A stretch of 34,339 nt of DNA. Origin: Loktanella salsilacus (GTDB taxonomy: Bacteria > Pseudomonadota > Alphaproteobacteria > Rhodobacterales > Rhodobacteraceae). The notes beneath the pieces are model-generated. The model did no database searches. It saw only the letters and a program-made list of their open reading frames with translations, and was not told the DNA's origin. This document shows positions 18,454-30,723 of the stretch, in pieces; the first letter of the stretch is position 1; each line of letters opens with the position of its first letter. The translations under genes were made by a program, and so were the position numbers. The stretch lies in assembly GCF_900114485.1 (NCBI RefSeq), contig NZ_FOTF01000031.1, forward strand, positions 1 through 34,339, in the 5' to 3' direction.

Positions 18454-18467
18454 CTGATCCAGATCAA
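18454..18467. promoter_or_regulatory. FNR/Crp-type box upstream of the N-ATPase operon
   Basis: CTGATCCAGATCAA fits YTGAY-N4-RTCAR, close to the FNR/FixK consensus TTGAT-N4-ATCAA. It ends 58 nt before the atpD start, a distance compatible with activation from about -41. It is one of five such sites in the window. Confidence 0.55.
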
Positions 18468-18525
18468 CGACCATATCGCGGCTTGCTGGCACGTTTAGGG
18501 TGAACCCGATGCGGAGCCTGACAGC

Positions 18526-19992
18526 ATGCACAGCGAAACCTCTGCCCCCGAGGGGCAGGATCTGAACGACGGATATGTGGTGTCGGTGCGCGGCGCAGTG
18601 GTCGATGTGTGTTTCGATACCGCACTGCCCGCGATCAATGATGCGCTGTCCGTGCAGTGGGAAAATGACGCGCCGCTGATCCTAGAAGTGCAAAGCCACC
18701 TTGATCCCCGCACCGTGCGGACCGTGGCGTTTCAGTCGACGGCTGGCCTGCAACGCGGGGTGCCGGTCGCAGCGACGGGCGGCCCGGTTAGCGTGCCGGT
18801 CGGCCCTGCGATTTTGGGGCGATTGCTGGATGTGGTGGGCAATCTGCGGGACGATGGCCCTGTGCTGCCCGATGACACACCGCGCCGGTCGATCCATGCC
18901 GCCCCGCCCGCACTGCGTGACCAGACGCCCACGACCGAGGTATTCGAGACGGGCATCAAGATTATCGACCTGCTGACGCCGATGGCGCAGGGCGGCAAGG
19001 CTGCGATGTTCGGCGGCGCGGGCGTTGGCAAGACCGTGCTGGTGATGGAACTGATCCGGGCGATGGTCGAAGGCTATGATGGGATCTCTGTCTTTGCAGG
19101 CGTGGGCGAACGGTCGCGCGAAGGGCATGAACTGCTGACTGAAATGCAGGACTCCGGCGTGCTGGACCGCACAGTGCTGGTTTATGGCCAGATGAATGAA
19201 CCGCCCGGCGCACGGTGGCGCGCCCCGATGACAGCGCTGACGATTTCCGAATATTTCCGCGACACGCGGCATCAGAACGTGTTGCTGCTGATGGATAACG
19301 TCTTTCGCTTTGTGCAAGCCGGGGCAGAGGTGTCCGGGCTGCTGGGGCGTCTGCCGTCGCGGGTGGGCTATCAGCCGACGCTGGCGACCGAAGTCGCGGC
19401 CTTGCAGGAACGCATCGCCAGCGTCGCAGGCTCGTCCGTCACGGCCATTCAGGCGGTCTATGTCCCGGCCGACGATTTCACCGATCCGGCGGTCACCACC
19501 ATTTCCAGCCACATGGACTGCGTCATCGTGCTGTCGCGCAGCCAAGCCTCCGAAGGGTTTTATCCTGCGATTGACCCGCTGGCCTCATCCTCGATGCTGC
19601 TTGATCCGCTGGTGGTCGGCGTCGATCATTACGAGACGGCAGAAGCCGTGCGCCAGACCCTTGCCCGGTTCCGCGAACTGACCGACATCATCTCTTTGCT
19701 GGGGGTCGAGGAATTGGGTCAGGCGGACCGTCTGATCGTGAAACGCGCCCGCCGCTTGCAGCGGTTTTTGACCCAGCCCTTTATGGTGACAGAGGCGTTT
19801 ACCGGCGTTCCCGGCGCACGGGTCACGCTGGCCGATACGCTGGCGGGATGCCGCGCCATTCTGGACGGGGCCGCTGACGATTGGGACGAAAGCGCGCTTT
19901 ATATGGTTGGCACGCTGGCAGACGCAGAGGCAAAGAACGCCGCAGCCGCGCGCCCTGCCCCCAAAGTCGCCGCAAAAAAGGACGCCGCATGA
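18526..19992 (+). CDS. atpD: N-ATPase F1 subunit beta
   Basis: The 488-residue catalytic subunit of a second, N-type F1Fo ATPase. The P-loop GGAGVGKT is at 163-170, the catalytic-glutamate region GERSREG at 194-200 (GERTREG in most F-ATPases), and MNEPPGAR at 223-230. The C-terminal DELSEED region reads [10 protein letters not shown]. It is first in the order beta-epsilon-Q-R-a-c-b-alpha-gamma, which is diagnostic of N-ATPases and differs from the split housekeeping atp operons of alphaproteobacteria. The tail (last 25 residues) is rich in Ala and Lys. It overlaps atpC by 4 nt. The GGAG ribosome site lies 9 nt before the ATG. In the family this complex is thought to pump Na+ (or H+) outward by ATP hydrolysis. 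Confidence 0.95.
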
Positions 19993-20393
19993 AACTGCGC
20001 ATCGTCACCCCTTTATCCGTCGTCGTGGAAACCGAAATCGACAGCCTGCGGGCCGAGGATTCCAGCGGCAGCTTTGGCATCCTGCCGGGCCATGCCCCGT
20101 TCCTGACGGCGCTTGCGATATCCGTCGTCACGTGGCGCAAGGAAGGCACGGATCATTTCTGCGCAGTACGCGGCGGCGCGCTCAGCGTGGCAGGCGATGT
20201 GTCCATCGCGACGCGCGAAGCCATCACAGGCGACAATCTTGCGACCCTTGATGCAGACGTGCTGGCACGGTTCCGGTCTGACGCCGACGCAGAGCGGATC
20301 GACCGCACCGCCGCCACAACCCTGCAGCTCAATGCCATCCGCCAGATGGTCAACCGCCTATCGCTGGGCGCCGACGCAGGAGAGTTCCGATGA
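19989..20393 (+). CDS. atpC: N-ATPase F1 subunit epsilon
   Basis: The 134-residue epsilon subunit of the N-ATPase central stalk. The N-terminal beta-sandwich has [14 protein letters not shown] and the conserved [16 protein letters not shown]; the C-terminal half is helical. ATGA overlaps with atpD and atpQ on either side show tight translational coupling. In F-ATPases epsilon links the rotor to the catalytic head and can inhibit hydrolysis. Confidence 0.93.
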
Positions 20394-20668
20394 CCCCGGA
20401 CGACGATGACCCCCTTGTGCGCCAAGCCCGCCTGCGCCGCGACCGCCACGACCGCTGGCTGCGCGAAGGCGATATGTCCGTTGGCCGCAGGTTGGCGCAG
20501 ATCGGCGTGCTGGGCTGGATGATCGTGGTTCCGATGCTGGCCGGGATCTTTACCGGGCGCTGGCTGGATGCACGCTTTGGCGACGGGATTTTCTGGACGG
20601 CCCCTTGCCTGATGCTGGGCCTTGGATTGGGCGGCTGGACCGCATGGAATTGGATGAACGCGGAATGA
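20390..20668 (+). CDS. atpQ: N-ATPase subunit AtpQ (AtpI-like)
   Basis: A 92-residue membrane protein with a charged N-terminal arm rich in Asp and Arg. Two hydrophobic segments follow (about 47-64 and 72-90), the second ending in WTAWNWMNAE. It resembles AtpI/AtpQ of N-ATPase operons, a presumed assembly factor or small membrane subunit. Its place between atpC and atpR is the expected one. It overlaps atpC by 4 nt and atpR by 4 nt. Confidence 0.85.
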   Translation: MTPDDDDPLVRQARLRRDRHDRWLREGDMSVGRRLAQIGVLGWMIVVPMLAGIFTGRWLDARFGDGIFWTAPCLMLGLGLGGWTAWNWMNAE

Positions 20669-20937
20669 TTGCAGACCTGCCGATGACCCTAAGCTTGCCC
20701 GCCAGCTTTGGCGGCGGAATTGTGCTGGGATTTGCCTATTTCTGGGCGCTGCGCGAAACCGCGCGCCTGATCGTCAACGGGGGGCATCCGGCGCTTGGAT
20801 TGGCGCTGACGCTTGGGCGGCTCGGGCTGATCGGCGCGGGGTTTTACGTGGCCGTGCTAGCGGGCGGGGCTGCCTTGATTGCCGCATTGGCAGGCGTGCT
20901 TGTCGCAAAAGCCGTGATGCTGCAGGTCGCGCCATGA
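20665..20937 (+). CDS. atpR: N-ATPase subunit AtpR
   Basis: A 90-residue protein with three predicted membrane helices, found in the family only in N-ATPase operons. The ATG at 20665 overlaps the atpQ stop by 4 nt and fixes the start; longer in-frame extensions would run through atpQ. Arginines in and next to the second helix (WALRETARLIV) fit the published idea that AtpR interacts with the carboxylates of c subunits. It overlaps atpB by 4 nt. Confidence 0.85.
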   Translation: MIADLPMTLSLPASFGGGIVLGFAYFWALRETARLIVNGGHPALGLALTLGRLGLIGAGFYVAVLAGGAALIAALAGVLVAKAVMLQVAP

Positions 20938-29825: not shown

Positions 29826-29830
29826 CTGTG

Positions 29831-29844
29831 CTGATCTATGTCAG
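29831..29844. promoter_or_regulatory. FNR/Crp-type palindrome between convergent genes
   Basis: CTGATCTATGTCAG begins 6 nt after the kinase stop and 56 nt from the 3' end of the Crp/Fnr gene. Because both genes end here, a promoter role is not obvious; it may be a decoy, a site for an antisense or small RNA promoter, or coincidence. It shares the trailing TGCGGC with the 29018 site. Confidence 0.35.
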
Positions 29845-29899
29845 TGCGGCCGCGCCGGGGGGGGGGCGTCAAGATCGGGGTAATCCCTGCATTCGCCAG

Positions 29900-30631
29900 T
29901 TAACGCAGCAATGGCCCCTCATGGTCTAGGTATCCCAAATCAAATTCCGCGAGGGCCACCAGTCCCTTAAAATCAAGGATCTCAACCTGCCCCTTTTGAA
30001 ACGTCAGCAGTCCTTTTTCACGCAGCTCACGCAGCACCCTGTTGACGTGAACCGCGCTTAGACCCAGCGCATCGGCCAGATGATATTGCGTCAAGGGGCA
30101 GTCAAATCCGGCCGTTGTCGCCTGTCCGACAAGCATCAGGCGCGCGTTCAGTTCGAGCAAAAAATGTGCCGTGCGTTCAAGCGCGTTGCGCCGCCCGATG
30201 CCAACAAGGTGTTCCACCACCATGGCCTCGTCCCGCGACGCGGCCCACAGGACGGCCGTCGCGAGGCGCGGTGTTTGGGTAAAGGCTGTCAGCAGCTCGC
30301 TGTCCTTAACCTCTGACGCCTCAACGGTGGTGATCGGTTCAATGTTATGGTCAGCGGTGCGAAACAGCACCGACCGCAGGCCAAGAAAGTCGCCGGGGAT
30401 CTGAAAGTCCACAATCTGCCGCGTCCCGTCACGCAGCAGCTTGTAGGAACAGACCCAGCCTTCAGCCAGAATATAGGCTGCCGACCGCGTCTGCCCTTGA
30501 TGAACAAGGTCACGGCCCGCGACAAACCTGCGACGGCGCTGGTGCAGCCCGTCTAGAACCGCAAGCTCTGCGTCATCCAATGCGACGAACGAGCCTAATT
30601 TCCGCGCAAGCGGGCTGTGTTTGCTATACAT
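29900..30631 (-). CDS. Crp/Fnr-family transcription regulator
   Basis: A 243-residue regulator with an N-terminal cyclic-nucleotide-binding-type beta-barrel (about 20-120), a dimerisation helix (about 120-160) and a C-terminal winged helix (DNA reading helix about 191-203, LSAVHVNRVLREL). It has only two cysteines (61 and 178), so the FNR iron-sulfur cluster ligands are missing. The arginine-serine pair of the cAMP pocket is not evident. The signal is therefore unknown. The residues aligned with CRP Arg180, Glu181 and Gly184 are Ala, Val and Asn, so DNA contacts differ from both CRP and FNR. The ATG at 30629-30631 follows GGAAGGG. The palindrome at 30710-30723 lies 79 nt upstream, between it and a divergent small gene, suggesting autoregulation. 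Confidence 0.88.
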   Translation of the reverse strand: MYSKHSPLARKLGSFVALDDAELAVLDGLHQRRRRFVAGRDLVHQGQTRSAAYILAEGWVCSYKLLRDGTRQIVDFQIPGDFLGLRSVLFRTADHNIEPITTVEASEVKDSELLTAFTQTPRLATAVLWAASRDEAMVVEHLVGIGRRNALERTAHFLLELNARLMLVGQATTAGFDCPLTQYHLADALGLSAVHVNRVLRELREKGLLTFQKGQVEILDFKGLVALAEFDLGYLDHEGPLLR

Positions 30632-30709
30632 CTGGCGCCCTTCCGGTCACGGCCGAAGGCCTACAAGACCTATCTAGATTGCGATTAACGGCTACGCCGC
30701 GCCTCAATC

Positions 30710-30723
30710 CTGATGTGTATCAG
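30710..30723. promoter_or_regulatory. FNR/Crp-type palindrome in a divergent promoter
   Basis: CTGATGTGTATCAG lies midway between the Crp/Fnr start (79 nt to the left) and the start of the 90-residue gene (73 nt to the right). Its position is ideal for control of both directions. It shares both half-sites CTGAT and ATCAG with the 29018 site. Confidence 0.6.

Follow-up and report, generated by a model that had tools for sequence, protein, structure and literature searches.

Which regulators act on the FNR/Crp-type palindromes found around a second ATPase in Loktanella salsilacus? Contig NZ_FOTF01000031.1 (34,339 nucleotides; this whole stretch is called the window below) carries, in this order, an N-ATPase operon, phaC, fabI, a MaoC–phosphotransacylase (pta) fusion gene, a gene of a HisKA_2 kinase, a gene of a Crp/Fnr-family regulator (crp/fnr, below crp), a small gene (sml) and a gene of a CHASE-PAS-HisKA kinase. 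A sequence-only reading of the window had assigned five such palindromes to one local regulon. The palindromes are present and conserved, and they split into two classes. They are best explained by two overlapping control circuits, an FnrL-type circuit for the N-ATPase and the polyhydroxyalkanoate (PHA) genes and a second one in which the local Crp/Fnr protein would control its own genes; the probability of this reading is put at roughly 0.55.

Palindromes in the window

A mechanical scan of the window with the 14-mer YTGAY-N4-RTCAR located all five sites of the sequence-only reading, at 18454, 24961, 29018, 29831 and 30710, but raised their number to seven, the two additional matches being coding (10428, inside a long open reading frame (ORF), and 26431, within phaC). 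The earlier estimate of about 0.5 chance matches agrees with 100 dinucleotide shuffles of the window (mean 0.46, maximum 4). FNR-type boxes are a feature of the whole genome, which contains 161 pattern sites vs 17 for a reversed control pattern; the window is enriched over its own genome (7 observed vs 1.34 expected, binomial P 4e-4). The five named sites are all intergenic, as had been claimed, but the 12-kb block around them holds a sixth site, which is coding. This block (18273–30795) spans 12,523 bp, of which 811 bp (6.5%) are gap sequence, and five of its six sites fall there (P 6e-6, counting the kinase from 29163). The five palindromes are not due to chance.

Two classes of half-site

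The R. capsulatus FnrL consensus is (T/C/A)TGA-N6-TCAA, with A as base 14 in 90% of sites (PMC4634722, in the portions covered). Sites 18454 and 24961 conform to it; 29018, 29831 and 30710 do not, having a TCAG end on both strands. Boxes of relatives, CTGACCCAGATCAA (genomes G315 and G355) and CTGACGCAGATCAA (G355), are identical to FnrL sites in Table 1 of the same partly covered source; here and below, G numbers denote genomes used in comparisons and L numbers denote fetched loci. A TCAA half is present in all eight phaC boxes and in 11 atpD boxes, the latter having been grouped by half-site after the sites were seen. TCAG at both ends occurs in none of the eight phaC boxes vs 72 of 75 crp|sml gaps, or 29 of 32 distinct operators (Fisher 2e-6; 1e-4 against the five boxes in atpG|phaC gaps alone).

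Boxes with a TCAA half upstream of atpD persist in G098, G355 and G415, three of the four close N-ATPase genomes that are devoid of a close crp ortholog, and such boxes are therefore independent of the local regulator. In G098 the Crp/Fnr family is represented by just two matches, FnrL (319 bits, cut-off 300) and a protein with the ETVSR helix. L. salsilacus itself encodes FnrL (L237, 388.6 bits against the NCBIfam model NF045989, cut-off 300). The 14-bp FNR-type palindromes of the Rhodobacter FnrL regulon fit the atpD and phaC boxes, whereas the TCAG-ended sites of the window do not fit that consensus, and no N-ATPase, PHA or phosphotransacylase target is named in the portions of PMC4634722 covered.

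Local regulator and its operator

Of 495 loci encoding relatives of the regulator, the best 80 (71–98% identity) were fetched. In 77 of them sml is found upstream of crp and in divergent orientation; the available DNA of L106 and L116 ends at crp. Yoonia vestfoldensis DSM 16212 is among the strains with the crp/sml pair (L062). The crp|sml gap contains a palindrome, mostly ACTGATCCAGAGCAGT or ACTGAGGCAGATCAGT, in a register identical to that of 30710. With the window counted, 76 of 78 gaps score at least 9 of 12 on a palindrome template, which was drawn from these gaps themselves, vs 60 of 1,560 shuffles. The operator of the local regulator would thus have the form CTGA-N6-TCAG, and sites 29018, 29831 and 30710 match it.

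A matrix was built from orthologs (32 distinct operators from 75 gaps; the window, its twin L058 and L082 left out). The five best-scoring sites of the window are, in descending order, 29018, 18454, 29831, 10428 (coding) and 30710; in 60 Markov shuffles the score in fifth place averages 8.3 and never exceeds 11.4. Site 24961 scores only 3.1. The strict form CTGAT-N4-ATCAG occurs 11 times in the genome, eight times within long ORFs (mechanical ORFs); the other three sites are 29018, 30710 and one preceding a BrkB-family gene, where short overlapping ORFs are found (L187). A matrix score of 22.7, the highest encountered in the genome, belongs to a site that also precedes a gene of a BrkB-family membrane protein (L226 7509; G000 C38:132508).

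The regulator belongs to the Crp/Fnr superfamily: it has a cNMP_binding domain (48 bits in Pfam) and a Crp-type helix–turn–helix, with PF00027, PF13545 and PF00325 above cut-off. Its predicted fold has a mean predicted local distance difference test score (pLDDT) of 85.9, and the best Foldseek matches are FNR, NtcA and CRP (E about 1e-11, with TM-scores of merely 0.4–0.5). The marker of FNR and FnrL is an N-terminal cysteine cluster for the 4Fe-4S centre. As the sequence-only reading had noted, this cluster is missing: C61 and C178 are the sole cysteines, and the alignment to FNR begins past FNR residue 36–41. The protein likely has no cAMP pocket. It reaches no curated NCBIfam cut-off, scoring 63.7 bits against the FnrL equivalog NF045989 (cut-off 300), 69.7 bits against the FixK model (cut-off 300) and 24.4 bits against the cAMP-CRP equivalog NF008732 (cut-off 266). 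The E-x-x-S-R recognition-helix motif of FNR and FixK is replaced by V-H-V-N-R, aligned to E-T-V-S-R, and this loss of E and S may be tied to the C-for-T base of the operator.

FixK2/FixK (PDB 4i2o) is, alongside A. fischeri FNR, among the closest solved structures by sequence and shares the DG-RQI and PGD-GL motifs with the regulator in the alignment, but the helices differ (A-V-H-V-N-R vs L-E-T-V-S-R) and the score is below the FixK cut-off. ArcR and Anr are Crp/Fnr-family proteins that control arginine deiminase operons. They resemble the present case in the association of such a regulator with arc genes, but here there is an association with the N-ATPase too, and in the window PHA and phosphotransacylase genes stand where arc genes would. 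RedB of R. capsulatus is likewise a Crp/Fnr protein of a little-studied subgroup linked to energy metabolism, but its published motif is an A/T-rich non-palindromic 12-mer (PMC9603854, in the part covered); identity of the local regulator with RedB was set aside by this motif alone.

Conservation upstream of atpD and phaC

The operon begins with atpD and includes an atpQ-type gene (TIGR02230, 52.1 bits, cut-off 46.7), as is typical of an N-ATPase; the best match of atpD is TIGR03305, alternate F1 beta (625.9 bits vs a cut-off of 752). Family-level and class-level samples supplied the N-ATPase loci. Among 19 close operons, which include the window, L060 and the fragmentary L081, a box was found within 250 bp upstream of atpD in 17, with the exact pattern in 14 and near-matches in G210 (matrix score 20.8), G238 (11.6) and G363 (10.3). 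The flanks of the 14 boxes average only 31% identity, so the box is kept while the surrounding region drifts. Upstream of phaC, a box is present in all eight distinct N-ATPase-linked loci (seven exact). In five of these (the window, G005, G098, G355 and G315) it lies within the atpG|phaC gap; in G164, G414 and G238 a 46–48% relative of phaC is divergent from atpD, and the phaC box is the one counted for atpD. With shared boxes counted once, there are 24 distinct atpD and phaC gaps, 19 of which have the exact pattern, vs 1 of 123 regions upstream of internal genes (Fisher 2e-18); the reversed control pattern gives 0 of 150. In operons of other families at 75–77% identity, one of four has the box (G674).

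A single TGA is reported inside the atpD match in G111, G210, G122, G123 and G391; this is perhaps merely an alignment overrunning the gene end.

Histidine kinase and its flanking sites

The gene described in the sequence-only reading as a small kinase does encode a kinase, but one of the HisKA_2 histidine kinase type. Alignments point to ATG 29163 and not GTG 29031 as its probable start: L047 aligns only from residue 45 on, and the 98% twin (L046/L058) from residue 22. With this start, site 29018 does lie upstream of the kinase, as had been stated, but about 138 bp away in a 203-bp gap. Site 29831, described as following the kinase, is indeed in the 74-bp kinase/crp gap, but the two genes are convergent and the gap offers no promoter position. 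The site is retained in the 98% twin; no match was found in the corresponding gap of L047. The stretches 29018–29036 and 29831–29849 continue with identical bases (TCAGTGCGGC), perhaps a sign of duplication or of a longer element common to both.

Arginine deiminase and acyl-phosphate genes

Arginine deiminase genes adjoin the N-ATPase in L055, L068, L070, L071, L073, L090, L095, L100, G111, G210 and G363, some of these being the same genome under two identifiers (such as L055/G020 and, probably, L071/G111). Over 300 bp upstream of arcD, no clear box was found in 10 of 11 rows (nine genomes) and a weak one (8.2) in the remaining one, which counts against simple direct control of the arc genes; in several loci the matrix does match close to the start of arcD or within the arcD/atpG region. 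No description of an N-ATPase tied to Crp/Fnr control or to arginine deiminase was found in the open-access papers searched.

Acetate kinase directly follows pta in G005 and G098. The MaoC-pta fusion and the FabI-type reductase could form a route from PHA precursors to acyl phosphate. The one acetate kinase match of L. salsilacus lies elsewhere, behind a second phosphotransacylase-like gene (L259 4301–6465; pta read by eye), and TTGATCCACATCAA is found about 77 bp upstream of the likely start of this gene pair.

Proposed control circuits and alternatives

On the preferred reading, of two overlapping circuits, the TCAA-half boxes would bring both the N-ATPase and the phaC-fabI-(MaoC)pta operon under the control of an FNR-type regulator that responds to oxygen, FnrL of L. 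salsilacus itself being the likeliest one. The TCAG/TCAG operator, in the crp|sml gap and upstream of the kinase, would be bound by the local Crp/Fnr protein. This protein would control crp and sml and probably the kinase gene, might recognise the mixed atpD box as well and, within one subgroup of N-ATPases, would control the pump too. The N-ATPase would act as an ATP-driven ion pump fed by substrate-level phosphorylation once respiration stops, the ATP coming from arginine deiminase in relatives and from phosphotransacylase with acetate kinase here; it is these neighbours, which make ATP without respiration, that suggest an anoxic pump. The assignment of proteins to sites, the sense in which control acts, oxygen as the signal and the purpose of the pump are all inferred from sequence comparison.

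Several observations weigh against this division. The FnrL consensus derives from another genus, the matches in G238 and G363 are weak (3–4% of random 250-bp stretches score that high), and among the 19 close operons G020 has only a weak atpD box and G256, which also is without a close crp ortholog, has none. At 64–71% identity, one of 11 operons has the box (G233). The kinase-upstream box in L047/G005 (10252) is a mixed TCAA/TCAG site, not one of the operator type. Both ends of the atpD box read TCAG in six operons (G111, G210, G122, G391, G379 and L081), in which the local regulator probably controls the pump, as it perhaps does in the window. In 248 family genomes crp occurs in 47, the N-ATPase in 20 and both in 14 (3.8 expected; Fisher 2e-7). 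For another N-ATPase, that of a cyanobacterium, salt stress and not anoxia has been proposed, which is the one role named in the covered part of PMC5376962.

The co-occurrence persists without the L. salsilacus genome (Fisher 8e-7), and 11 of the 80 crp loci have N-ATPase genes no more than 10 kb from crp (L059 being of a distant type and L081 in fragments). This proximity and co-occurrence make it plausible that the local regulator acts on the pump in some relatives. By atpA identity, a marker independent of the sites, five of the six TCAG-ended operons are set apart at 70–72% (L081 has no atpA match); near this range there are otherwise only G674, G441 and G567 (67–70%), which have no crp and a T/T box or none. 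In this 67–72% group a TCAG-ended box thus accompanies crp in five of five genomes and is present in none of the three without it. That the six operons are simply those linked to arginine deiminase was rejected: G020 and G363 are so linked yet have no clear box and a mixed box, respectively, and arc genes were seen in G111 and G210.

The one local regulon of the sequence-only reading, in which the protein of 29900–30631 binds all five sites and controls the N-ATPase, the PHA genes, the kinase and itself, is an unlikely account but the strongest competitor. The conserved atpD and phaC boxes and the co-occurrence and proximity of crp and N-ATPase agree with it, as do the single register common to all sites, the presence of four of the five among the top five of the ortholog matrix, the six TCAG-ended operons and the mixed kinase box of G005, by which the classes can swap; but there are two half-site classes, the operator type is lacking among phaC boxes, 24961 scores poorly on the matrix, boxes are kept in G098, G355 and G415, and 29831 is off-promoter. 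It is less probable still that all boxes are sites of FnrL, or of another ETVSR-type FNR/FixK protein, and that the local Crp binds elsewhere. The abundance of the loose pattern in the genome would suit such an arrangement, as would FnrL-type boxes preceding a P-type ATPase/COX1 cluster (cbb3-like by layout) and glutamate decarboxylase in L. salsilacus, seen in selected looks; the sites with TCAG at both ends, however, misfit the published 90% A at position 14 (PMC4634722, as covered), and the strong conservation of the crp|sml operator beside the regulator is what autoregulation would predict. Chance matches or terminator-like hairpins are very improbable: site 29831, between convergent genes, can form a 10-bp stem, but shuffled sequences fold about as well (z -0.6). 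Enrichment over controls and conservation speak for real sites, and conservation argues against such an origin for 18454, 24961, 29018 and 30710.

Features of the window and further observations

Table 1. Coordinates of genes and palindromic sites in the window.
Feature	Position	Strand	Basis or remark
Box before atpD, FnrL-type (one TCAA half)	18454..18467	.	CTGATCCAGATCAA; centre ~65 bp upstream of ATG
N-ATPase operon atpD-C-Q-R-B-E-F-A-G	18526..24930	+	gene order; atpD and atpQ families by profile
Box before phaC, FnrL-type	24961..24974	.	TTGACCTGTATCAA; centre 80 bp upstream of ATG
phaC, PHA synthase	25048..26820	+	best match class I model, 526 bits, under its cut-off of 623
FabI-type enoyl reductase	26817..27581	+	NF005717, 394 bits, cut-off 337
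MaoC/phosphotransacylase fusion	27568..28959	+	NF006045, 699 bits, cut-off 282
Box in pta–kinase gap, Crp-operator type (TCAG in both halves)	29018..29031	.	CTGATCCGCATCAG; top matrix site of the window
Small HisKA_2 histidine kinase	29163..29825	+	domain match, alignments
Box in convergent kinase/crp gap, Crp-operator type	29831..29844	.	CTGATCTATGTCAG; 74-bp gap
Local Crp/Fnr-family regulator	29900..30631	-	no FNR cysteine cluster; recognition helix LSAVHVNRVLREL
Operator between crp and divergent small gene	30710..30723	.	CTGATGTGTATCAG
Small divergent gene sml, partner of crp	30796..31068	+	90 aa, predicted three-helix

The sml proteins are mostly 76–97 aa long and strongly conserved (AALAICESLLLALND...GGNSVRR). 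There was no match in Pfam or NCBIfam, and the model (pLDDT 80.9) gave no PDB fold match at E <= 0.001; sml is possibly a partner or a target of the regulator. Another recurrent gene of the fetched crp loci encodes a Cpn60-family chaperonin (cluster c6, 24 of 93 loci), for example at L128 409–2163, where it adjoins sml. Broken crp copies are also found: that of L059 (10001–10729) has an in-frame stop at codon 39, and the match to a second copy in G005 (C7:95657–99527) is split in two, with about 3 kb between the pieces.

FnrL-type targets elsewhere in the L. salsilacus genome come from selected looks at the P-type ATPase/COX1 cluster, glutamate decarboxylase, the phosphotransacylase–acetate kinase pair and MCRA. 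Two boxes are situated at the start of the glutamate decarboxylase gene (L226 12281 and 12364), the second falling inside the longest reading of its ORF; the gene is followed by that of an aspartate–alanine-type antiporter (under its curated cut-off).

Implications

PMC5376962, in the part covered, describes the roles of N-ATPases in the cell as mostly unexplored. Conserved FNR-type boxes upstream of atpD, together with neighbours that make ATP without respiration, offer a direct answer, open to testing, to the question of when and for what purpose a second ATPase is made in some alphaproteobacteria, and the operator kept in nearly all crp|sml gaps is a candidate DNA target for a regulator that lies outside all curated NCBIfam cut-offs. 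More tentatively, a little-studied Crp/Fnr subfamily, with the operator CTGA-N6-TCAG and a recognition helix lacking the usual Glu and Ser, may join FnrL in switching on an anoxic module of alphaproteobacteria, in which ATP made at the substrate level, by arginine deiminase or by phosphotransacylase and acetate kinase, would be spent by a dedicated N-ATPase on ion gradients.

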